Source: Candidatus Krumholzibacteriia bacterium | GTDB lineage: Bacteria > Krumholzibacteriota > Krumholzibacteriia > LZORAL124-64-63 | Assembly (NCBI GenBank): GCA_016744705.1 | Contig: JADGDU010000002.1 | Coordinates: forward strand, 62,001-126,000 | Direction of reading: 5' to 3' | Length of the DNA stretch: 64,000 bases | Shown here: positions 11,738 to 36,529 of the stretch, in pieces | How positions within the stretch are numbered: the first letter of the stretch is position 1 | Layout: every line of letters starts with the position of its first letter | Notes under the pieces: model-generated | The model's database searches: none | Seen by the model: the letters and a program-made list of their open reading frames with translations, nothing else | What the model was told of the DNA's origin: nothing | Made by a program: the position numbers and the translations under genes

Positions 11738-13366
11738 TTACTTCCCGGCCATAATGGCAGCCACGTCCTCTTTCACATCACCAATGGGCATGATGTTGAA
11801 ATTTTCCACCAGAACCTTGGCCACGTTGGGCGAAAGGAATGCAGGCAGGGTGGGCCCGAGGCGGATGGACTTCACGCCCAGATGCAACAGAGCCAACAGC
11901 ACAACAATAGCCTTCTGCTCGTACCAGGCGATGTCGTAGGAAATGGGCAGGTCGTTGATATCTTCCAGCCCAAAGACTTCCTTCAACTGCAACGCGATGT
12001 AGGCCAGAGAGTAGGAGTCGTTGCACTGTCCGGCATCCAGGATGCGAGGAATGCCACCAATGTCGCCCAGCTCCAGCTTATTGTAGCGGTACTTGGCACA
12101 ACCGGCGGTCATGATCACGGTATCTTCGGGCAATTCATTGGCCACGTCAGTGTAATACTGGCGATCCTTGCTGCGGCCGTCACAGCCAGCCATAACGACA
12201 AAGCGTTTGATGGCGCCAGTCTTAACCGCATCGACAACTTTATCAGCCAGGGCCATAACCTGAGCATGGGCAAACCCGCCGACGATTTCACCAGTCTCAA
12301 TTTCCACAGGAGCGGCACAGGTTTTGGCCTGCTCGATGAGAGCCGAGAAATCTTTGCTGCCACCTTCTGGGCGGTCGGCCACATGCTTGACCTCGGGCCA
12401 GCCTGCCATACCCGTGGTATAGATGCGATCTTTGTATTCTGCCTTCACTGGAGTGATGCAGTTGGTGGTCATCAGGATAGGGCCGTTGAAGGTGGTGAAC
12501 TCTTTGTCCTGCTCCCACCAGGCGTTGCCATAGTTGCCAACAAAGTGGTCAAACTTTTTGAAGGCTGGGTAGTAGTGGGCTGGCAGCATTTCACTGTGAG
12601 TGTATACATCCACGCCCGTGCCTTCGGTCTGCTTCAACAGCTCTTCCATGTCTTTCAGATCGTGACCGGAAATCAGAATGCCGGGGTTATTGCGGACACC
12701 CAGGTTAACAGTGGTCAGTTCGGGATGGCCATAGCTGGTGGTATTGGCTTCATCCAGCAGGGCCATGGCGGTGACGGCCACTTCGCCACATTTCATTACC
12801 TGACCGATCATTTCATCTACGGTCAAATCCTTAGTAGTGGAAGCCAGGGCTGCCTCCATGAAATCAAAGATTTCAGCATTCTTGAAGCCCAGCAAAGCTG
12901 CGTGATCCGCGTAAGCAGCCATACCCTTCAATCCGTAAACCAAAAGTTCCCGCAGGGAGCGCACGTCTTCGTTGGGCTGAGACATGACCCCAATTTCCAG
13001 GGCTTTCAGAGGGACTTCGGCATTGGTGCCAGCCCAATTGACGCAATCCAATTCACTGGTGAAACCAACGACCTCTTTCAGTGCGTCCCGCTTGCTGATG
13101 GATTCCTGGATCAAAAGGCCCAGGCGATCGACATCGAAGTTGGCATTAGTGATAGTGGCAAACAGACCCTGGCAGATAAAGGTGCCGATGGAGTCGTCGT
13201 TCTTGCCCTGGGCGTTGGCTTCTTCGGCCACCAGAGCCAACCCCTTCAAGGTGTGGACCAGGACATCGTGATATGCAGCGATGTCTTCTTTTTTCCCACA
13301 CACTCCGGCCACGGTGCAGCCAGTGCCCTTAGCCGCTTCCTGACATTGAAAACAGAACATGCTCAT
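11738..13366 (-). CDS. hcp: Hybrid cluster protein / hydroxylamine reductase
   Basis: A 542-residue Hcp. The N-terminal cluster motif is C-x2-C-x8-C-x5-C ([13 protein letters not shown] then VAGVC), the spacing of the anaerobe-type [4Fe-4S] class rather than the [2Fe-2S] class of enteric bacteria. Conserved blocks for the hybrid Fe-S-O cluster follow, including [47 protein letters not shown] and [12 protein letters not shown]. Hcp reduces NO or hydroxylamine in the cytoplasm and protects against nitrosative stress. ATG at 13366 follows AAGGAG by six bases, so the longer frame to 13384 is rejected. It is monocistronic, with its own terminator and an operator-like upstream region. No Hcr reductase gene is nearby. 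Confidence 0.96.
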
Positions 13367-13844
13367 GTCGTTCTCCTTGTTCACACGCCCTGTGGATGGT
13401 ATTTCCCGGGCGGAAACTGGTACAAATTGTGGGTCACCTGACCCGGAACCCCCTCATGTTGCAGAGGGAATATGTACATGTTTGTCCAGTTTTCCAAATA
13501 AAAACCAGACAAACTTGTCCGCTTTTCAAAAAACGTTGAGTACCCCTTACAACGCAAGTCACCTAACTAATGTAAAACTATATACTTAACCCAGAACCAA
13601 CACTATTGTTTCAGTAGGGTTTTCGGGAAAACCAAGCCCAAATAACAGAGCGACTGTTTGACGTAAAATATCCTTTCTTCATCCTGGATATTGCTATTCA
13701 AAGGAAGGTAGAAACAAAAGGTCATCTCTCAATACATCGTTGTAGGCTCAAATGGGAAGACAACCAGCAAAACATGGTGTTTAATCAAATGCGCATGACT
13801 CTTGTTATTCCAATTGGCGATCCAAGTAAAGGAATCCATGCCCT
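13367..13844. other. 478-base divergent regulatory region between hcp and a histidine kinase
   Basis: This AT-rich region between divergent genes shows no credible coding frame. It carries two related dyad elements near hcp (13474-13520, listed separately) and a further inverted repeat GGTTTTC-GG-GAAAACC (13618-13633) nearer the middle. Promoters for both flanking genes must lie here, but I could not fix the boxes with confidence. Confidence 0.5.
13474..13520 (-). promoter_or_regulatory. Two tandem operator-like sites upstream of hcp
   Basis: GACAA-AC-TTGTC at 13508-13519 is a perfect dyad. A degenerate copy (GTACATGTTTGTCC, 13474-13487) lies 33 bases away, about three helical turns. The two share ACA-N3-TTGTCC. 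They sit 110-150 bases upstream of the hcp start. They do not match FNR (TTGAT-N4-ATCAA) or HcpR (TTGAC-type inward half-sites). A redox or NO regulator site is a guess from the gene content. Confidence 0.4.
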
Positions 13845-18373: not shown

Positions 18374-19510
18374 TTATTTCACGTGAAGATACCGTGATTC
18401 CCTCACAAATGCCCCGATGAGTTTGAAAATACGCCTGGCCACCGCCCCCCACAGCAACAGCACCAGCACCGGCACAATCACCGTCGACCATGCGCCCCAT
18501 CCGGCAGGCAAAAAAGCACCCAGACGCCCAGCCCAGATCACGGGCAAAACCACCGCCACAAATCCCAGAAAGACAATATTCATAAGTCTGTGAATCAGTT
18601 TGAAAATCAGTTTTGGTCGGGAGACGGTTTCCCTGCAAACCCGATCCAAATCCTGAAACCCCAGGACATCGCACAGAGCCCAATAGCCATCAGCCCGGAT
18701 GAATGGAATCATGTTCCAAATGACAGCCCCATAGGTCAGGCGGGCGGCGACCATCACCGCCACCGAATGCAGGGAAAGGTTGCTGGCCACCAGAATCAGC
18801 ACGGCTCCATAAGCTGCCTGAAACGATATTCCAGCCAAGTCCACCCGCAGTTTTCCTTTCTTGGGGAGCATGGCGATAGCGGACACATCGTTGTGGAGAA
18901 CTGGAATGACAAAGAGTATTCCCGCGCCAATGCCCCCGGCCGGATAACCCTGATCTGAAAGTGCTGCGGCATGACCCAATTCGTGCAAAACGGCGCCTAA
19001 CAAGAAGAGGCCTGCCGCCACCAACCAGTCTCCGGTTTTGAGGAGACCGAAGCCCTCCCTGGTCAGTGGCAACAGGGGCACAACCAAGCCCCAAAGGGCC
19101 ATCCCGATCAAAGCCCACCCTTTGGTCAGGGTCTCCAGCGGCCGTGCCATTTTTTGAACAACGAGGGCAGAAAGTATAGGGACCCGCAACCAAAGGGCAC
19201 GGCGTGAGGCATTGGCCGCAGGTCTTTCCATTTGGGCTTTTAAACTGGCCATGGTTTGGAGAATTTGCTTCTCCGTCCATAGGGTCCCATCGCTCTGGTT
19301 TCCCCGACGCAAACAGTCCAGCACTTCATCTGATTTTGGCCGCCTGCCTTCCAGAGGTACCAACCATCTGGCGGGCACCTCTGGCATGAGCAGGCGTTGT
19401 CCTCCGGCATTGATCACCCACGGTCCGGATCGATGAGACAGGATCCTCCACTTTTCCCCCACCTCATCCACCCAATCTGGCCAGGCCCAGCAAACACAAC
19501 CGCAAAGCAT
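18374..19510 (-). CDS. M50-type membrane zinc metalloprotease with N-terminal PqqD-like region
   Basis: A 378-residue membrane protein. Residues about 22-95 form a small soluble domain (LLMPEVPARWLVPLEGRR ... EVLDCLRRG) whose pattern resembles PqqD/RRE peptide-recognition domains; this is inference. The membrane part has HELGH (His176, Glu177, His180) and NMIPFIRADGYW with the third zinc ligand Asp274. That is the layout of peptide zinc metalloproteases found in bacteriocin and epipeptide operons (YydH-like). About eight hydrophobic helices are visible. ATG at 19510 overlaps the acyltransferase gene by 47 bases, with GGGTGA eight bases upstream; a GTG at 19468-19470, overlapping that gene's stop, is an alternative. 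It is the last gene of the peptide cassette, so cleavage or export of the modified peptide is the likely job. Confidence 0.8.
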   Translation of the reverse strand: MLCGCVCWAWPDWVDEVGEKWRILSHRSGPWVINAGGQRLLMPEVPARWLVPLEGRRPKSDEVLDCLRRGNQSDGTLWTEKQILQTMASLKAQMERPAANASRRALWLRVPILSALVVQKMARPLETLTKGWALIGMALWGLVVPLLPLTREGFGLLKTGDWLVAAGLFLLGAVLHELGHAAALSDQGYPAGGIGAGILFVIPVLHNDVSAIAMLPKKGKLRVDLAGISFQAAYGAVLILVASNLSLHSVAVMVAARLTYGAVIWNMIPFIRADGYWALCDVLGFQDLDRVCRETVSRPKLIFKLIHRLMNIVFLGFVAVVLPVIWAGRLGAFLPAGWGAWSTVIVPVLVLLLWGAVARRIFKLIGAFVRESRYLHVK

Positions 19511-20645
19511 GGAATTTCACCCAATGAAGACCGTGCTCATCGCACAATTGCTGTAAAGTCGGACGTCCGTTGCGCAGGCTGAGGAGGTCTTGATCTTGCA
19601 GACCTTCAGCGGGGAAAAAACGGTCGTCTGTAAGGTCAGCCAATACGTCGCCGGGCCACACCTCGGCGTGTTTGTCCAAGACCAGGCACACCGAATCCGG
19701 GGATCGGTCCAAGCAGATATTGAAGGAGTGGATGAAGTCTTCCCTCAAGCCCCTGGGTACCATGGAGCCCTGATTCAGGCCTGGCGAGAAACACGCGCTG
19801 GCATCCCGCAACATAGGCCAATGCTGCCACTGGTCCGGTCGCTTCATAATCTCGCTGAAGCACCAGTCGAACATCAACCGGGAGACATTGTCCGGATCAT
19901 CCTTGCGAGTCCAATGTTGGGTGGGTTCTTTTTCCCAAATCAGATCACCCGATTCATCCCAGTGCAGGGCCACCAAATGAGCAGCGCATTGCAGGCGGCA
20001 CAGCAGCCGAGCCAACCCTGTGCGAATGCGGATATCGCGACCAGGCAGGGCATATCTCAGGCCGTTGCTGCGGGTGCCTTCCATGCCTTCGGCGCCATTG
20101 TTACCGTCCATGTAGACTAGAACCGGTCGCTCATCCTGAATGGCTTTGAAAAGAGTGCGTACAAAACCCTTTTCTCCCACCGCCACCCACTGGATTTTTC
20201 CTTTGTGCCCCAGCAACTCCATCAACTTGCGGGTGGGCTCGCGAAAAGAATCACGCGCCGCTGCGTTGAGCAGAATGACCGGCTCAAGTCCCGCATCCAA
20301 AAAGGGCTCGACCAGCAGTTGGTACGGTCCCTGATGGAAAGAAAGAATCAGTCCCGATTTCATTTCAGGGTTTTCTCTGAGTAAACTGCGGCCGGGGGCC
20401 AGAATGCTCCGGTCCCCCGCCCACAGACCGGCAAGAGCCTCCCGTTCTCTTGCCAGCGCCTTTTGATGATTTTCTCTGAGTTTTAGAAAATCATCCCATT
20501 CGGCATCGGGCCACAAAGCCCGTAAAGTCCATAAATCCCAGGCAGCCTTGGGGTAGTGGTGGGTCACTTCCGCCCGCCTTTCGGGCCCGGAACTCCTCAG
20601 AGTTCCGGACCTCGACAGGCGGCTGCTTTCATCGGTCGGGATCAA
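19464..20645 (-). CDS. LpxL/HtrB-like acyltransferase homologue with altered HX4E motif
   Basis: The 393-residue frame starts at a TTG (20645) overlapping the peptide stop as TTGA. A GTG at 20567 is a good alternative, because a strong hairpin (20587-20608) would then fall between genes. The fold signature is that of lipid A acyltransferases: KSGLILSFHQGPYQLLVE, RPVLVYMDGNNG, and ALPGRDIRIRTGLARLLCRL match the HX4E block, the strand-Asp block and the G-R-x-x-x-x-x-TG block. In HQGPYQ the family acid is Gln109, so the His/Glu dyad is broken. No membrane anchor is obvious. Placed between a precursor-like peptide and an M50 protease, it may acylate or bind the peptide rather than lipid A. Family homology is fairly sure, function is not. 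Confidence 0.75.
   Translation of the reverse strand: MIPTDESSRLSRSGTLRSSGPERRAEVTHHYPKAAWDLWTLRALWPDAEWDDFLKLRENHQKALAREREALAGLWAGDRSILAPGRSLLRENPEMKSGLILSFHQGPYQLLVEPFLDAGLEPVILLNAAARDSFREPTRKLMELLGHKGKIQWVAVGEKGFVRTLFKAIQDERPVLVYMDGNNGAEGMEGTRSNGLRYALPGRDIRIRTGLARLLCRLQCAAHLVALHWDESGDLIWEKEPTQHWTRKDDPDNVSRLMFDWCFSEIMKRPDQWQHWPMLRDASACFSPGLNQGSMVPRGLREDFIHSFNICLDRSPDSVCLVLDKHAEVWPGDVLADLTDDRFFPAEGLQDQDLLSLRNGRPTLQQLCDEHGLHWVKFHALRLCLLGLARLGG
20587..20608 (-). promoter_or_regulatory. Strong hairpin just downstream of the precursor-like peptide gene
   Basis: CCGGAACTC (20587-20595) and GAGTTCCGG (20600-20608) form a perfect 9-base stem with a 4-base loop, 34 bases after the peptide stop. No T tract follows, so it fits an mRNA-stabilising or attenuating element that keeps peptide output above that of the downstream enzymes. 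It would be coding if the acyltransferase starts at TTG 20645. Confidence 0.5.
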
Positions 20646-20866
20646 GCGCCTCTCCCACCAACGATTTCACCGGTATCAACAGGATCATCAATGTCGATGT
20701 CATTGCCGCTGCACTTGTCGTGGCAGCAATTTTCCCCATCAAAAAGATTACTGTCCACCACATCTCCACTGGGCATCATCGAGCTGACTTCCAGGCGTTC
20801 TTCAAGCTGGTGAATTTTCAGGGGTTCGAGGCTTTCGTTCAGTGTCCGAGCTTCCTTGTTCGTCAT
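20642..20866 (-). CDS. 74-residue Cys-containing peptide, candidate RiPP precursor
   Basis: The ATG at 20866 has a perfect AAGGAGG five bases upstream, the strongest ribosome site in the window, so this small gene is real. Residues 1-30 are charged and helical-looking (KIHQLEERLEVSS), like a leader peptide. The rest is Asp/Gly-rich with Cys47, Cys48 and Cys52 (ENCCHDKCSG) and ends GEIVGGRGA. There is no signal peptide. The next two genes encode an acyltransferase homologue and an M50 protease with a PqqD-like region, the first sharing a TTGA overlap with its stop. I recognise no family; a leader/core precursor is inferred from size, composition, expression signal and neighbours. Confidence 0.72.
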   Translation of the reverse strand: MTNKEARTLNESLEPLKIHQLEERLEVSSMMPSGDVVDSNLFDGENCCHDKCSGNDIDIDDPVDTGEIVGGRGA

Positions 20867-20995
20867 TGTTCCCTCCTTGAAACATGAATCGTACCGGGTG
20901 ATGCAGGATAGAAGGCAAGGATGAGGCCAAACAACACAAGGACCATAAGCGCCTCATTATCAAAGACTTAATGTCTTGCCTTAAATCCAGGGGAT
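20867..20995 (-). promoter_or_regulatory. Promoter region of the peptide cassette
   Basis: A terminator just upstream isolates the cassette, so a promoter must lie in these 129 bases. A small dyad AAGAC-TTAAT-GTCTT (20963-20977) lies here. A TTGTGT/TTGTTT-like -35 with a poor -10 is visible, but no clear consensus promoter was found. Confidence 0.35.
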
Positions 20996-21030
20996 AAAAA
21001 ATGACCCCGCCGTTTGACACGGCAGGGTCA
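20996..21030 (-). terminator. Rho-independent terminator of the DUF2797 gene
   Basis: On the minus strand TGACCCTGCCG (21030-21020) pairs with CGGCGGGGTCA (21012-21002), with one wobble and a 7-base loop, followed by six T. It lies about 30 bases after the stop codon and separates this gene from the peptide cassette. Confidence 0.9.
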
Positions 21031-29285: not shown

Positions 29286-31520
29286 TTAACCTTGCACAAC
29301 CCCGACAGTCGTCAAATTCACCACCCCCTGCACTGTTTCCCCATATTGAAGAATATGCACCGGCAACCTTGTGCCCATCAGCAATGGCCCTATGGGAATG
29401 GCCTCGCCCATGTGCTGCAACGACTGCATGGTCAGATTTCCTGATTGCAAATCAGGGAAAACCAAAACATTGGCATCGCCAGTGAGACTGGAGAATGGAA
29501 AGAATTCATGACGCAATCGGGAGTGGCGGGCCGTGGCCAATTGCATCTCCCCTTCGATTTCCAATTCCGGAGCCTGAGCCTTGACGATTTCCACCGCCCG
29601 TTGAACCTTCTGGGCGTAAGGATGGCTGGTGCTGCCAAAATTACTGAACGACAACATGGCCACTCTGGGTTGTACTCCCAGGGACCGGGCCGTGGTGGCG
29701 GCTTGCAGGGCAATTTCCGCCAGCTGTTGGGCCGTGGGATCAATGTTCACCGCACAGTCGGCCAGCAGAACAACTTCCTTGGGCATCAAAACCAAATGGT
29801 GGCTGGAAACCCGGCTCACTCCCTCTGCCGGTCCAATGATTTCCAACAAAGTCAGCAGCGTATCAGTGAAGTGGGTGGACGATCCGGCAATCATCATATC
29901 GGCGTGACCGCTGTGGACCATCATGGCCCCAAAACAATCCGGCTGCCTCATGCGGTCTCCCGCCAAAGCCCGGATCACACCGTGCCGCTGGCGCATCTGG
30001 AAATATTCTTCGCAATATTCCTCCAGATGAAGGCTGCGCAAGGGGTCGATGAATTTTGCACCGCCAAGGTCCAATCCTAGACTGTCAATTTTCTGCTGGA
30101 TTTCAGCTTCATTGCCCAACAAGATGGGCGAGGCAATGCCTTCATCCATGAGCTGGCTGCAAGCACGTAAAATGGTCTCATTGGTACCTTCGGTAAATAC
30201 CACCTGGCGCGGATCCTGGCGGGCGCGCATGAGCAATTCACGCATCTTTTCCCGACCCGTCCCCAACCGCACCGACAACCGGCCTTCATACTCTTGTCGG
30301 GCCAGGGGCTTATTGGCCACACCTTCGGCGATGGCCTGCTCAGCCACGGCCGCCGATTGCCGGACGAAGATCCGCGGGTCCAGCGGTTTGGGGAGCAAAT
30401 ATTCGGCACCAAAACTGAATCTCTGTCCGCCGTAGGCCCGCTCTACTTCTTCGGGAACATCTTCCCTGGCCAACTCAGCCAGAGAACGGGCAGCCGCCAG
30501 AAACATTCCTTCGGTGATGCTGGTAGCCTGCACATCCAAGGCCCCCCGGATGATGTAGGGAAAGCTTAACAAGTCCACGATGGCATTGGGGTGCATGTCC
30601 AGGGCCGTGGCCACGATGGCATCCTGGCGACTGGCTCTGGCCTCTTCGTAACTGATCTCAGGCTCCGGTGTGGCCATGGCAAAAATAATGGGAAAGCGCG
30701 CCATGGAGCGAATCATTTCCATATTCAGGATGCCACCGGAAGAGGCCCCCAGAAACACATCAGCCCCCACCAGACCATCGGCCAGATTTTCGAGAGGTGA
30801 GCTGCGCGCGAACACCTGTTGGTACTGATGCAGGTCCTGGCGATCCGTGTGAATTAAGCCATCGACATCATACATGAGTAAATTCTCAGGCAGCACACCT
30901 TGCTTCAATAACAACCGGGCACAACCGATGCCCACGGTGCCAGCTCCACAGATCACCACTCGCACTTCATCCATCTGTTTGTCCACCAACTCCAGGGCGT
31001 TGATCAGGGCCGCCAGAGCCACCACCGCTGTGCCATAAAGGTTCTCATGAAAGATGGGGATCTCGATGATTTCCCGCAGCCGGTCGTATATCTGCAAACC
31101 TTGAGGCGCTTGAATATCCTTAAGGTTCAAGGCTCCAAATGTGGGCTCCAAAAGGCGCATGGTTTCCACAAATCCATCCACATCAGTCTGGTTCAATTCC
31201 AAACCATAAACATCAATATCAGCCAGACGTTTCAAGAGGATGGCGATGCCTTCCTGCACTGGCTTAGCCGCCCGTGGGCCAACGTTTCCCATGCCCGGCA
31301 CAGCCGACCCATCGGTGACCACACCCACCAGGTTTCCTCGGGAAGTGTAGCGAAAAACTTCAGCCGGATCCTGGGCAATTTCTTCTGCCGGGAAGGTGGC
31401 CCCGGGCAAATAGGCCAACCGGATTTCCCGGGGCGTGATGCAGGATTTGGTGGCCGAAACCCCAATCTTCCCGGGGCGGCCTTTGCTATGATAATCCAGA
31501 GAATCCTGTTTCCTGATCAT
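29286..31520 (-). CDS. maeB: MaeB-like malic enzyme-phosphotransacetylase fusion with degenerate malic site
   Basis: A 744-residue protein with the full MaeB layout: malic enzyme N domain (1-160), NAD(P) Rossmann domain (CGAGTVGIGCA near 190) and a phosphotransacetylase-like C domain (about 415-744, SFSNFGST, GDANVLVFPDL, IGPLLMGTRLPVHIL). The family Tyr is kept (Tyr58), but key residues are not: the catalytic Lys of PVxEGK is Ile92, the metal ligand Glu of LEDI is Lys134, and HDDQHGTA reads HENLYGTA, losing the metal Asp (Asn160). Oxidative decarboxylation of malate therefore seems unlikely; a sensory or other carbon role is possible. Its ATG overlaps the dikinase stop by 4 bases (ATGA), so the two are translationally coupled. 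Confidence 0.9.
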   Translation of the reverse strand: MIRKQDSLDYHSKGRPGKIGVSATKSCITPREIRLAYLPGATFPAEEIAQDPAEVFRYTSRGNLVGVVTDGSAVPGMGNVGPRAAKPVQEGIAILLKRLADIDVYGLELNQTDVDGFVETMRLLEPTFGALNLKDIQAPQGLQIYDRLREIIEIPIFHENLYGTAVVALAALINALELVDKQMDEVRVVICGAGTVGIGCARLLLKQGVLPENLLMYDVDGLIHTDRQDLHQYQQVFARSSPLENLADGLVGADVFLGASSGGILNMEMIRSMARFPIIFAMATPEPEISYEEARASRQDAIVATALDMHPNAIVDLLSFPYIIRGALDVQATSITEGMFLAAARSLAELAREDVPEEVERAYGGQRFSFGAEYLLPKPLDPRIFVRQSAAVAEQAIAEGVANKPLARQEYEGRLSVRLGTGREKMRELLMRARQDPRQVVFTEGTNETILRACSQLMDEGIASPILLGNEAEIQQKIDSLGLDLGGAKFIDPLRSLHLEEYCEEYFQMRQRHGVIRALAGDRMRQPDCFGAMMVHSGHADMMIAGSSTHFTDTLLTLLEIIGPAEGVSRVSSHHLVLMPKEVVLLADCAVNIDPTAQQLAEIALQAATTARSLGVQPRVAMLSFSNFGSTSHPYAQKVQRAVEIVKAQAPELEIEGEMQLATARHSRLRHEFFPFSSLTGDANVLVFPDLQSGNLTMQSLQHMGEAIPIGPLLMGTRLPVHILQYGETVQGVVNLTTVGVVQG

Positions 31521-34500
31521 CCCGGCACCTCTGATTTAATGCAGAGCGGATAGTGCTCCACGGTTTTGCGCAATTCGGCGCGGAAAGTGGCGATAGGACG
31601 GGCCTGCAACAACCACAGGCGGTCGCCCTCTATGGTAAATTCAATATCCAGAGGATAACCGTAACCGTTTTCCAAAGCGCTGGCTTTGGTTACGATTTCA
31701 CACAATTCAAAATATTCAAGGGCCGGACGCAAGCGCTGGTGGTAGAGAGTTTCTTCCAGGCGGGTGCCCCAACCACGGCGTTGGTCATAGACCATTTGAG
31801 TGGGTTTGTCGTTGGTCAGGTAGTTCAGATGGGTGGGGTCTTCGCCTGCCTTGAAATCTTTCACCACAGTGACCAGATCTGCTGCCACCAGACCCGAGAC
31901 AATCCCCTCGCCAAGGCCCAGACTCACATTGATCAATAATTCCCGCAGATCACCCCGGGCCACATTCACCGTCTGCAAAACACCAGACACCCGGGAGTGA
32001 ACCATGCGCTGCACCACGACCCCACCCGAGGGCATAGCCATGGTGGTTCCCGCCGCTTCCCGTGAGTACAGAGCGCGTTCGGTCCATAACCCGCTCCAGG
32101 TCAACCGCAGATACTTCAGCAAAGACTCCACTCCCTTCACAAAGAGGAAGCTTTCAAACTCACCGGCTCGCATCACCGTTTCTGTATCTTCGTCACAGGA
32201 TGAGGAACGCAAGGCCACAAAGTCATCACCATCGACGAGCTGGGCATGGGCTGTTTTCACACTTTTCAGCAACTCGTTCGGCAGTTTTGTTTCCAACCAT
32301 AACCTGCTGATAGCCGCAGACTTGGCCCCATTGTCTAGGCTTTCCCGTCCCAAGACATACTGAATAGCCTCTTCCAGAGTTCGCGCCCCGGCTCCCAGAT
32401 ATTCAGCCGAACCCACAGGTTCTTTCAGCATCTGAGCGAAGGCCACATTGGTAACCACAAACCACGGCGGCACTGTTTCTGCCCCTGCCAGGCGATCCAT
32501 TTCCGCCAGGTTGGCCGCCTTCCACCCAATGAGAGGATTCGACTCCAGTCCACACTGGTTTGCCTTCAATACATTTTCCATTTTGGTGGCATTCAAAGAA
32601 TGGGCATCCATTTGGGCCAAAAACTCCTGGCTTTCAATGAGCAATTCCGGTCGGGGGGTGGCTGTCCCCAAAACGGTCCCGATGCGTCCAATGCGGCGCA
32701 GCAGATGCCGGATGGCCGCTCCCTTAGTTGATAGATTTTCTGATAATTTCAACAGCAAATCAGTGCGCAAGTCTTCCAACCGATGCCGGGCCCGATCACT
32801 GACCTCTGCGGGGTCCGGACATGCAGGCAATTCTTCATTCAGTCCAAACTGCTGCAATAACATCACAGAATCGGTCATGGCCAGCCGCCAATGCATGGCG
32901 CGCAGTCGCCAACCCAGCACTTCGTAGAGGAAAGTAGAGGTGGGAATTTGTTGCATGGCCGCGCGCTCAGCTGTGGCGCAACAATCGGCCACGTGGTGGC
33001 AGATTTCATAGAGTTTTGACCTTGCCGACTCAGCAACTTTATCATTGGCCAGGATTCTCAACAGCAATCTTTTTTTGTCTGTGTTGAGAACTTTTTCCAT
33101 GGTTTCGCCGATGACAAGTTCTTCTACGGCGAAGGCAGTCAGGGATGGGTCGGTGAGCCGATCCACGATCTTTTGGATCTGATGACGGGCTCGCAGTTGT
33201 TGGGCCCGAATCTCCAGAACGGCCGAATCATCCACCACATGATCCGCCCTGGCACAGGCCTCTCCCAGCAGGCGCAAACCATCCCAGAGAGCCAAGGTAT
33301 CGCGGTCCTGCCCAATGATCTGGGCCAGACTTTCATCTGCGTCGAGGATGACCAGATCATTCTCCAACAGCTCTTCGGCGTGCCGGCGAACAACTTCTCT
33401 TTCGCACACGATGAAGTCACCAACTTGGTGTTCCTGCTCACGGTATTCCGGAACCATAAACCGCAGGGCAGGCTCGCTGCCCGTATCGTCCCATCCCGCT
33501 TCCGCCACCATGGCTGGCTTGCCAAATTGGATGGCCAACAGGGCCGCGTGGCTGAGCACTGCACCCCCTGTGGAAAGGATGCCAGCACAACGGCATAGAA
33601 ATTGGTTATCCGTGGGACACACTTTGCGAGCCACCAGGATGGCACCTACCAAATCCTGGGGCTGGCGGCCTTCGGTTCCAAAAAGAACCCGGCCCACCGC
33701 GCGACCCGGCGCGGCTTTCAGGCCTTTGAGTACTCGATCTTCCCCTTTGATCCGGCGATCCTCCGCTGGACGGTCCAACTGGGCCTGGGCCCTCAATTCC
33801 GCCAGATCAAGATTCTGATCGCAGGTTTTTAAGGTCATCACTCCCGCCAAATAGTTGGCGCTGAGCATGAGTTCCCAAAGGTGATGAGCATCCAGATTGG
33901 CGTTGGATTGCCAAGGATCTGTTTCAGCACAGCGGTAGCGCATCAAACGGGATTCCTGGCAATAAGCACCCAAACGAATCACACCATGCGCATCCCGAAC
34001 CACAAAGATACTGAGATCCCCTCCCAGAACGGTGACGGTGGATTTTTCCACCACCAAGCCCCCTACAAAACCCGTGGGTGTGAATTCCACGAAGCGTTCC
34101 AATTCCGCCAAGGGACGGGAAAGTCCGCAGGATTCGGCGGCAGCATTGCCACCCTCCACCAGGAGCAGTGCAAAAAATTCTGCTTCGTGAACGATTTGAA
34201 ACACATCTGGAGAGGCCGTTTCGAAATCTGTTTCTCCAGGGAATATCCGCCCCACTTTCAAGGCCTCAGTCACCGGCTTCATAACAACTTTTTCCACCTC
34301 CAGAAGAGGCAGCAACCCTTGCCTGGCTTCTTCCTGCAAGGCAGGAATCTGGAGTGACAAATCAGCCAGAACCGATGTCAATTGATTCAGAAAATCATCC
34401 GGTGGTTTGCTGCTGAAACAATCTCTGCAAGCACCCTCGCCATCCCAAAGAAGCTCCTGCACCCCAGTGGGCCCGTGGGCCTTTTCCACCAACACCCCGG

Positions 34501-36529
34501 TACGCTTTGCATTGAGAATAGTCCCCATGGGCAACACACCACTGCGGCGGAAACGGTCGGCCCAATGCTCGGCAACTTTCTGTCTGGCTTCATCTGACAA
34601 CTGGAGAGAACCGATGACCCAATCCACTTCCATCAGATAAGGGGCCATGCGCAACAAAGCCGACACATGATCGCACAGATCACCCAGGGAGAAGCTGCGT
34701 TCCTTGTCGTAGCGTACAAACAAACGCATGCCTTCCATGCGCACGTCAAAATCCAGGGTGCGGAACATCAAACGAATGGCGTCCAATGCGGAGTTAGGGT
34801 GCAACTCAATTTCATAATTGGAGACTCCGTAATACTCCAGATCCATCATGCCCCCGCGTTGGGGAGGTGAATAATCCACCCGCAAAAAGGCAGGGTGGTT
34901 GCGGAAGGCCAGGTAGTAGTGCACCTCATTTCCAAAGATAAAGACATCCACAGAGGGAAATGCTTCCGTTCCAAAAAGCATCTGTCGGGACAGACTATCG
35001 GCCACAATGCGCACTGGAAAAGGCAATAAATCCGGCATCGTATTTTCAATGCCAGCTTCAAACTCTGCATACCGAATGGTTTTGCAGACCACTTTTGATT
35101 CGTCAGGCTTCACCAGAATCAAGTCCACTGTCCGGTTGGGGGCGTGGGTTGTATCCACCATTTTAAACCCCAGCTTCAGGCCCTTCTGGTGCAAATACCG
35201 CTTGAGGCCGTGGACGCTCCGCACTTCCCCCAGGTTACTCGGATCTTCAAAAGCCAGGACCAGGCGAGTCAGTTCCGCCGACAGAGGGCCCGTCTCTGGT
35301 TCGTCTGCCAGGGCTGTGATCGATCGGCCGCGCAGATCTTCCCACAACTGAGGTAAAATGGCGCAATCATCAGACAAATCCACAAACAGGGAAGCGTAAG
35401 TTTCCACCACGGAATCAAGATGAAAGATGATCCGCTCCACCTTGGCTTTATCCAAGGGGGCCACATCCAAAATTTCCCCCAACAATTCTGCATGAGTGAT
35501 ATTCAAGACGCGGAATCGATCCACGGGGTCGCTTTTTTCGCGGTGGCTTCCAGGTTTTTGTGCAGATCCACCGTGCGTGGTGATTAAGTGAAAACTGCGC
35601 CCAATGCTGGCTTCCGTTTGGGAAAAGAGAAGGACTTCACTTTCGCGGACAATCAAGGGAAGCGTTCCTGGTAAAACAATCTCCACAAAGTGCTCGATGC
35701 GGAGCCCCAGACTCACATGGGCCCAGCCCACAGTGGCCACCGCTTCTCTGACCAGAATTTCACCGTGTGTTTTTATGGCTGTGCGGAACAGAGCCAACAC
35801 CCGGGCCGGCAGACGTTTCCCCTCACTCAAATCATACAGGTCCTGGTGGGTGGCTCGTGTGAAATTGAGGTAGGGGCCGAGCACTTCGAAGGCCTTGGCC
35901 CCCAGAATGAGTTGGGAATTTTCCGGTGGAGCGGGAGCGCCCTCTTTGTCCAATAAGGTCGCTGCCAGTTTTCGGGTATGATGATCAGGATCTTTACGCA
36001 GAAGTGTGAGCAGTCCATCACCACCAGAGGTTCCATGATGACGTTCCACAGTGCCGATGAGCAGCTCTAACAGATCTTCGTCTTCAAAGGGACTGAATTC
36101 CAGATCCATCAACCGCGCGTATTCCCGCAACAAAGGCCTATTCAACGGGATCGTTTTTTTGTTGACCAACTCCAACGTCAGGCCAGTGGCCAACTGGGCC
36201 ACGCCTTCGTCCGCCGCTTGTAACAAGGCCTTCAACAAGGGCCACGGCCGGTCCATCTTCACTGCCAGATCAGCCAGCATTTCATAAACAGGCAACGCGA
36301 TAAAATCGTCTGTGACGGCCAACAACCGGGCCAGCTGCCGGATATGTTTCCATTGGGAGGGGCGTGGCGGGTGGGATAAAAGGGCGATGATTCGGTCGCA
36401 GTCCAGGCGCACTTCATCGTCGTCTCCACAGACCATGGCCAATTGCTCGCTGATAGAAGCGACAAGCTGAGCAAGAGTGGGTGTTGCAGAGACTTGGGCC
36501 AAGGATATATCCGATGCGGCCGAAGACAA
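31517..36529 (-). CDS. Giant dikinase (PEP synthase/glucan water dikinase-like) with phosphohistidine then ATP-grasp order
   Basis: A 1670-residue cytoplasmic protein. Residues about 1-220 are helical and HEAT-like; 220-900 are unassigned. The phosphohistidine domain has His994 in GGAVLSHAALLA. A helical stretch follows, then a C-terminal ATP-grasp domain (about 1330-1655): NPLIGWKAANLAEM, VALRSSSCDEDTE, TWSGLWTERALYSR, GGVVVQRMVHSRVSGVLQ, SLGLGEGIVSG and DRLWLLQARPI. In PEP synthase and PPDK the ATP-grasp comes first; this order is that of plant glucan water dikinases, as is the VLSH spelling. No PEP/pyruvate TIM barrel is present, so the acceptor is unknown. The start at TTG 36529 lacks a ribosome site; ATG 36436 is possible. 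Coupled to the MaeB-like gene. Confidence 0.82.
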   Translation of the reverse strand: MSSAASDISLAQVSATPTLAQLVASISEQLAMVCGDDDEVRLDCDRIIALLSHPPRPSQWKHIRQLARLLAVTDDFIALPVYEMLADLAVKMDRPWPLLKALLQAADEGVAQLATGLTLELVNKKTIPLNRPLLREYARLMDLEFSPFEDEDLLELLIGTVERHHGTSGGDGLLTLLRKDPDHHTRKLAATLLDKEGAPAPPENSQLILGAKAFEVLGPYLNFTRATHQDLYDLSEGKRLPARVLALFRTAIKTHGEILVREAVATVGWAHVSLGLRIEHFVEIVLPGTLPLIVRESEVLLFSQTEASIGRSFHLITTHGGSAQKPGSHREKSDPVDRFRVLNITHAELLGEILDVAPLDKAKVERIIFHLDSVVETYASLFVDLSDDCAILPQLWEDLRGRSITALADEPETGPLSAELTRLVLAFEDPSNLGEVRSVHGLKRYLHQKGLKLGFKMVDTTHAPNRTVDLILVKPDESKVVCKTIRYAEFEAGIENTMPDLLPFPVRIVADSLSRQMLFGTEAFPSVDVFIFGNEVHYYLAFRNHPAFLRVDYSPPQRGGMMDLEYYGVSNYEIELHPNSALDAIRLMFRTLDFDVRMEGMRLFVRYDKERSFSLGDLCDHVSALLRMAPYLMEVDWVIGSLQLSDEARQKVAEHWADRFRRSGVLPMGTILNAKRTGVLVEKAHGPTGVQELLWDGEGACRDCFSSKPPDDFLNQLTSVLADLSLQIPALQEEARQGLLPLLEVEKVVMKPVTEALKVGRIFPGETDFETASPDVFQIVHEAEFFALLLVEGGNAAAESCGLSRPLAELERFVEFTPTGFVGGLVVEKSTVTVLGGDLSIFVVRDAHGVIRLGAYCQESRLMRYRCAETDPWQSNANLDAHHLWELMLSANYLAGVMTLKTCDQNLDLAELRAQAQLDRPAEDRRIKGEDRVLKGLKAAPGRAVGRVLFGTEGRQPQDLVGAILVARKVCPTDNQFLCRCAGILSTGGAVLSHAALLAIQFGKPAMVAEAGWDDTGSEPALRFMVPEYREQEHQVGDFIVCEREVVRRHAEELLENDLVILDADESLAQIIGQDRDTLALWDGLRLLGEACARADHVVDDSAVLEIRAQQLRARHQIQKIVDRLTDPSLTAFAVEELVIGETMEKVLNTDKKRLLLRILANDKVAESARSKLYEICHHVADCCATAERAAMQQIPTSTFLYEVLGWRLRAMHWRLAMTDSVMLLQQFGLNEELPACPDPAEVSDRARHRLEDLRTDLLLKLSENLSTKGAAIRHLLRRIGRIGTVLGTATPRPELLIESQEFLAQMDAHSLNATKMENVLKANQCGLESNPLIGWKAANLAEMDRLAGAETVPPWFVVTNVAFAQMLKEPVGSAEYLGAGARTLEEAIQYVLGRESLDNGAKSAAISRLWLETKLPNELLKSVKTAHAQLVDGDDFVALRSSSCDEDTETVMRAGEFESFLFVKGVESLLKYLRLTWSGLWTERALYSREAAGTTMAMPSGGVVVQRMVHSRVSGVLQTVNVARGDLRELLINVSLGLGEGIVSGLVAADLVTVVKDFKAGEDPTHLNYLTNDKPTQMVYDQRRGWGTRLEETLYHQRLRPALEYFELCEIVTKASALENGYGYPLDIEFTIEGDRLWLLQARPIATFRAELRKTVEHYPLCIKSEVPG

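Follow-up and report, generated by a model that had tools for sequence, protein, structure and literature searches.

Does a short reading frame in front of an LpxL-like acyltransferase homologue and a membrane protease encode the precursor of a modified peptide? The question is raised by three minus-strand genes in a 64,000-nucleotide stretch of DNA from a Candidatus Krumholzibacteriia bacterium (contig JADGDU010000002.1; the whole stretch is called the window), which lie between a DUF2797 gene and a topoisomerase gene, the latter on the opposite strand. A first-pass annotation had proposed that they form a cassette for a ribosomally synthesized and post-translationally modified peptide (RiPP). 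This proposal is strongly supported by comparison with relatives, since a small peptide gene stands directly upstream of the enzyme gene in 32 of 33 loci of one Krumholzibacteriia family, as detected with an iterated hidden Markov model (HMM), and in 30 of 30 loci of a second group from another phylum. We consider it rather probable that the cassette is a minimal RiPP-type biosynthetic operon working by the stepwise mechanism proposed below. Its sole linked modifying enzyme in the window is a protein of the LPLAT superfamily. The three genes are:

20642 to 20866, minus strand: Cys-containing putative precursor peptide gene, 74 residues, stop codon included; dN/dS 0.05–0.08, 36 aligned homologues.
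19464 to 20645, minus strand: LpxL/LpxM/PatA-like enzyme (LPLAT superfamily), 393 residues, TTG start; fold matches, and PF03279 matched by 22 of 31 members.
18374 to 19459, minus strand: M50 (site-2-type) membrane metalloprotease, GTG start most likely, reading frame open to ATG 19510; NCBIfam matches and fold match.

The 74-residue peptide is encoded by a real, conserved gene under purifying selection. Compared with two relatives, dN/dS is 0.079 and 0.046 (65–73 codons), which is similar to or lower than the values for the enzyme (0.08–0.13) and the protease (0.22). Together with the 36 aligned homologues, which are 62–95 residues long, this places the open reading frame (ORF) beyond chance. 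The Cys residues 47, 48 and 52 and the AAGGAGG site, 12 nt ahead of the ATG, were confirmed as first described, and AAGGAGG, GGAGG or AGGAGGT is found at the same position in nearly all homologues. The elements of the peptide gene and its 3' border are:

20872 to 20878, minus strand: AAGGAGG ribosome-binding site of the peptide, with near-universal equivalents.
20777 to 20839, minus strand: conserved leader, residues 10–30 (L..L.I.QLEERLEVSS).
20711 to 20728, minus strand: Cys motif CCHDKC, residues 47–52, proposed modification site.
20574 to 20622, minus strand: predicted RNA hairpin directly 3' of the peptide stop, 18 pairs.

Mean pairwise identity among the 36 peptides is 0.56 in residues 10–30, where the family-wide consensus reads L..LGI.ELEERLE.SPLL, 0.33 in the Cys core and 0.11 in the tail. 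At least one Cys is present in all 36, the first one 13–24 residues beyond the leader where this was measured, and the spacings CC.C, C.C.C and CCxxxC occur in most peptides. Judged by sequence, this is how a RiPP precursor is laid out, the leader being conserved, the tail hypervariable and the Cys motif placed between them; as in RiPP systems generally, the gene is small, divides into a conserved leader and a variable core, and stands next to a modifying enzyme. Two relatives of the window (loci L083 and L085) carry the peptide gene in two tandem copies. The peptides match no family in Pfam or NCBIfam.

The hairpin was absent from the first-pass account. A strong stem-loop is predicted directly past the peptide stop in nearly every locus, and compensatory changes are found in 7 of the 18 predicted pairs across 18 alignable loci. 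In several genera, including that of the window, it falls within the first codons of the enzyme ORF, and in others it is intergenic. Rfam contains no match to it. Presumably, the hairpin is a device that favours precursor over enzyme output.

The enzyme is encoded in 32 of the family's 38 genomes, and the 42 genomes from other families in the class all lack it. An M50 gene belongs to 28 of the 33 loci; in 27 it follows the enzyme gene immediately, and in L092 the distance is 1.9 kb. It cannot be seen at two loci whose contigs end inside the enzyme gene, and it is absent from L104, L109 and probably L112. Enzyme homologues that usually lack the peptide, or peptides occurring by themselves, had been named beforehand as the pattern that would speak against a common system; the HMM search gave the opposite picture, and the peptide-only or M50-only finds sit at contig ends. 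At L104, the one exception to the peptide rule, the divergent peptide candidate carries L..LDVREL, His104 of the enzyme is replaced by Gln and the M50 gene is missing, as though the entire unit were decaying. Genes for a HisKA kinase and an OmpR-type regulator, often divergently oriented, lie near the cassette in several Krumholzibacteriia subgroups. L109, L111 and L112 (genomes G054, G055 and G052) carry a paralogous, divergent version of the cassette whose peptides end in single-Cys SYVCNI, SYVCTI or SYICTI; L111 is cut by a contig end and adjoined by hybrid histidine kinases.

Beyond this class, genome contigs were scanned with one peptide pattern, which undersamples the wider distribution. 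Sphingobacterium and Runella turned out to carry distant LpxL-like relatives. In a profile comparison, the Bacteroidota enzyme domain aligns to the window family at E 1e-19, with His104 and Asp180 matched. In the Runella family the enzyme occurs in 49 of 151 sampled genomes, and a Cys peptide, in up to three copies, precedes it in each of the 30 loci read. These peptides have about 50–67 residues from an MK start and contain one Cys or CC (MKKQFAIK...KNES...CC...SL). In the ten Runella-family loci read more widely no adjoining M50 gene was recognised; a LytTR membrane regulator and a LuxR-type response regulator adjoin the loci examined. Sphingobacterium carries several distinct paralogues with a Cys ORF of 42–49 residues 63–98 nt upstream (less clear at L150), one of them followed by a histidine kinase and a LytTR regulator. 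A sample of the whole phylum gave 6 positives among 396 genomes, hence the distribution is patchy.

The closest counterparts in Bacteroidota are found in genome G250, its near twin G743, and G616, where peptides with the LEERLE leader occur together with the LpxL-like enzyme. The peptides have CC..C or C..C.C cores and are present as three tandem copies in G250 and G743. Read more widely, G250 and G616 also contain an M50 homologue, which in G250 matches the window family at E 1.4e-20, and a radical-SAM/SPASM protein whose nearest known counterparts are peptide maturases (TIGR04463-like or CefB-like). A second phylum thus combines leader, LpxL-like enzyme and M50 protease at loci that are recognisably of RiPP type. 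The earlier statement that no radical-SAM enzyme is present is therefore true of the window locus but not of the wider system.

An unlinked TIGR04463-type radical SAM was considered as a partner of the cassette and rejected. Strong proteins of this type are missing from 37 of the 38 family genomes, and the matches in the window genome are weak. The remaining genome, G049, lacks the LpxL-like gene, and its maturases have other neighbours: two radical-SAM proteins scoring above 300 bits to TIGR04463 (contigs C131 and C380, loci L249 and L250) lie in differing surroundings with ABC-transporter-like genes. A further LpxL-like relative, with a PqqD-looking C-terminal stretch, was seen in a metagenome-assembled genome labelled Thalassovita (contig PBYL01000482, loci L153 and L146). 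It is followed by ORFs that by eye resemble an AMP-ligase, a phosphopantetheinyl transferase and a FabZ-like dehydratase, and no peptide gene was recognised upstream; such a variant might supply its own acyl groups.

Which chemistry might the enzyme perform? An AlphaFold2 model with a mean predicted local distance difference test (pLDDT) of 86 matches LpxM (5knk, E 1.8e-9) and PatA (5f2z, E 3.3e-9), and the protein is hence predicted to have the LPLAT/LpxL superfamily fold. With 14.1 bits (E 0.028) the window enzyme stays below the Pfam cut-off of 22.3 bits for PF03279 and by this score is not an LpxL lipid A acyltransferase; a PDB sequence search gave a weak PatA match (E 0.25). The relevant elements are:

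20334 to 20336, minus strand: His104, catalytic His of the LPLAT motif, kept in 30 of 31 members.
20106 to 20108, minus strand: Asp180 (DGN motif), candidate acid partner of His104, kept in 31 of 31.
19467 to 19694, minus strand: C-terminal domain of strands followed by three helices (RiPP recognition element (RRE)/PqqD-like topology), AlphaFold2 model, pLDDT about 87–96.

The family is marked by HxGPY and DGN signatures, and Arg203 and Arg208 are conserved as well. The acid of the HX4D/E motif is replaced by Gln, Asn, Ser, Lys, Pro, Ala or Thr in all 31 members. The distance from His104 to Asp180 is 76 residues and resembles the 74 residues in PatA, whose catalytic His we take to be His126. 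For PatA, pairing of the catalytic His with the topologically distinct Glu200 has been proposed, and VexE retains activity with Tyr in place of the canonical acid, a distinct Asp532 being the partner of its His (PMC9597891). In view of these two precedents and the similar spacing, a working active site formed by His104 and Asp180 is plausible.

The assignment of the third gene product as an M50 protease carrying HELGH and NMIPFIRADGYW held up, since both motifs are present. The two His and the Glu of the zinc site as well as Asp274 are invariant in 21 of 21 members, so that each has HExxH and the third ligand Asp within membrane helices. The window protein matches daptide_HExxH (E 3e-18) and LiaK/YydH (E 2e-12) and no other NCBIfam family, with 66 of 300 and 47 of 225 bits, respectively, i.e. 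below the equivalog cut-offs; among the 21 members, all match the former and 20 the latter. Its predicted structure matches SpoIVFB (8vjl, E 8.5e-3, probability 1.00), and a PDB sequence search gave a weak match to the MJ0392 protease (E 0.005). M50 proteases are known from the epipeptide and thia-amino-acid (pearlin) RiPP pathways (PMC10885120). Two elements are relevant here:

18971 to 18985, minus strand: HELGH zinc-binding/catalytic motif, residues 176–180.
19226 to 19453, minus strand: N-terminal soluble domain, three strands then three helices (RRE-like topology), AlphaFold2 model.

PqqD-like recognition domains had been named as a feature of RiPP operons. Their predicted fold topology was found in the cassette, and a sequence relationship was not: profile probabilities stayed below 1% when the enzyme C-terminus, the M50 N-terminus and the Bacteroidota C-termini were compared with local PqqD homologues, and likewise when the two window domains were compared with each other. 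The same contig carries a stand-alone PqqD gene at a distance of 27 kb, which sits beside an HPr-kinase-like ORF and was set aside as recognition partner. This PqqD-family gene (locus L214, 5935–7648; G000, contig C78, about 8–10 kb before the window) lies behind HPr-kinase-like and small peptidase-like ORFs, both identified by eye. Of 28 relatives sampled, 23 have PqqD matches, and the L214 region is possibly a second, unrelated peptide system.

The mechanism that we propose for the cassette starts with a precursor in which the Cys motif follows the leader and precedes the hypervariable tail, and the hairpin past the stop would provide more precursor than enzyme. The RRE-shaped domains at the enzyme C-terminus and the M50 N-terminus would bind the leader. 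The His104/Asp180 pair may then transfer an acyl group from a thioester donor (acyl carrier protein or coenzyme A) to the core, most probably to Cys; cysteine acylation is our best guess for the likeliest chemistry. The acylated peptide would thereby enter the inner membrane, where the M50 protease would cut the membrane-held peptide after the leader and release or export the lipopeptide. More speculatively, the product could be a species-specific signal rather than a housekeeping lipid. The HisKA/OmpR and LytTR neighbours and the hypervariable tails suggest such a signal-peptide role, an antimicrobial or membrane role being the alternative.

A RiPP system is supported by the linkage of peptide and M50 genes to the enzyme, the identity contrast between leader and tail, the tandem copies and the covarying hairpin. 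It is also supported by the LpxM/PatA fold with His104 and Asp180 kept, the RiPP-type M50 matches with an invariant active site, and the independent pairing in Bacteroidota, which includes the radical-SAM/SPASM loci of G250 and G616. Finally, the parts covary, as L104 loses His104, M50 and a recognisable peptide together. Several observations weigh against this interpretation. The acyl product is a prediction, and with the HX4D/E acid lost, enzyme activity is assumed. Both extra domains only hint at RREs through their predicted topology, and no exporter adjoins the cassette. The single-Cys subgroup of L109 and most Bacteroidota versions have no adjoining M50 gene. Moreover, near-universal presence in one family and a conserved position are unusual for secondary metabolism. 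A more specific claim is more tentative, and we advance it as somewhat less than an even chance: ribosomal lipopeptides of a new class would arise by S-acylation of precursor Cys through an LPLAT enzyme, and a site-2-type protease would release them as species-specific lipopeptides with a membrane or signal role. Such a class would be nearly universal in one Krumholzibacteriia family and would also occur in Bacteroidota, there with additions (radical SAM, LytTR or two-component sensors).

The loss of the HX4D/E acid in every member could also mean that the operon makes a RiPP without fatty-acid attachment. The LpxL-like protein would then transfer or activate another group (a short acyl group, an intramolecular thioester or a lactone), or it would be a leader-binding membrane scaffold while unlinked enzymes modify the Cys residues. 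The radical-SAM maturase of the Bacteroidota relatives indicates that other enzymes can act on such peptides. We regard this as unlikely, because the conserved His104, Asp180 and Arg203/Arg208 suggest catalysis, VexE works with its canonical acid replaced, and nearly all family genomes (37 of 38) lack a strong TIGR04463-type radical SAM. A Cys-rich metal- or redox-binding peptide (chalkophore-like, or a membrane thiol carrier), acylated just as an anchor and released under control of the M50 protease, appears improbable. The Cys spacings of most peptides would suit such a function, but the single Cys or plain CC in one subgroup and in most Bacteroidota peptides leaves no common metal site, and no metal transporter was recognised among the conserved neighbours.

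The succession of Cys codons and a strong hairpin where the enzyme gene begins would also suit a cysteine attenuator, i.e. a short ORF acting as a regulatory leader that controls enzyme expression, with no role for the peptide itself. Conservation, however, is highest in the Cys-free leader, and peptides of 62–95 residues with strong ribosome-binding sites are hard to reconcile with it. The simple form is ruled out by the tandem copies and by dN/dS, leaving the attenuator a very small likelihood. That ordinary genes adjoin here by chance deserves hardly any credence. The enzyme would then be a late acyltransferase for lipid A or phospholipid, its neighbour a site-2 protease, and the small upstream ORF spurious. 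The LpxM/PatA and site-2 protease folds would agree with this, and it is contradicted by the same gene order in dozens of genomes, the purifying selection on the peptide and the independent pairing in another phylum.

If the cassette is a lipopeptide operon, how does it relate to known systems? Lipidation of RiPPs was called 'very rare' in a 2022 review, which names GNAT acylation, polyketide hybrids and prenylation as routes (PMC9505594). Selidamides and other GNAT-acylated RiPPs (phaeornamide, nostolysamides) share with our proposal a ribosomal precursor that is fatty-acylated by a dedicated acyltransferase. There, enzymes of the GNAT superfamily act on Lys or (hydroxy)ornithine (PMC9505594), whereas the cassette combines an LPLAT enzyme with a conserved Cys; neighbouring genes were not screened with a GNAT profile. 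Lipolanthines and goadvionins are likewise ribosomal lipopeptides but polyketide hybrids (PMC9505594), and neither polyketide synthase genes nor a lanthionine synthetase were recognised at the cassette. Daptide and epipeptide (YydH/EpeP/LiaK) systems also have an intramembrane HExxH protease beside a RiPP precursor. The cassette differs from them in that its M50 protease scores far below their cut-offs and neither an epimerising radical SAM nor any further daptide gene was recognised in its vicinity. The TIGR04463/CefB-like radical-SAM/SPASM systems for Cys-rich peptides are approached by the Bacteroidota relatives, which share the maturase alongside LEERLE Cys peptides, LpxL-like enzyme and M50 protease, but no maturase lies near the window cassette. 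LpxL, LpxM, PatA and VexE resemble the enzyme in fold and catalytic His, and VexE also in the missing canonical acid; the peptide context, the extra C-terminal domain and the HxGPY and DGN signatures set the cassette enzyme apart.

Among the open-licence papers searched, we found none that pairs LpxL/LPLAT enzymes with RiPP precursors. Should the proposal be true, a peptide-dedicated LpxL/PatA branch would add an enzyme family to RiPP chemistry, and HxG[PS]Y and DG(N) together with the LEERLE leader and Cys would provide a handle for genome mining. The product would be testable in cultured Bacteroidota such as Runella, and Krumholzibacteriota would have a conserved peptide product with an apparently important role.

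Two gene boundaries deserve comment. The TTG start of the enzyme overlaps the TGA stop of the peptide gene, as the first-pass annotation had noted, and this is credible because in L082 and similar close relatives this TTG is the sole usable upstream start and in other genera stop and start overlap by ATGA, TAATG or TAGTG. The overlap claimed between the M50 and enzyme genes probably results from the start codon that was chosen. In the closest relative, ATG 19510 is followed two codons later by an in-frame TGA, and conservation of the M50 family begins at about residue 17; hence GTG 19459 is probably the start, the overlap of about 47 nt is probably not real, and stop and start lie a few nucleotides apart. 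The terminator said to isolate the three genes upstream was recovered as follows:

21002 to 21030, minus strand: terminator-like hairpin ending the upstream DUF2797 gene and separating it from the cassette.

The DUF2797 gene and a nucleoside-recognition-like gene adjoin the locus in many relatives, and these recurrent surroundings suggest vertical inheritance. Elsewhere in the window, a minus-strand ORF of 1670 residues (31517–36529) resembles by eye an enzyme of the pyruvate-water-dikinase or phosphotransferase type, greatly extended at its N-terminus, and is adjoined by a malic-enzyme-like ORF (29286–31520). Another minus-strand ORF (11738–13384) resembles, again by eye, a hybrid-cluster protein.

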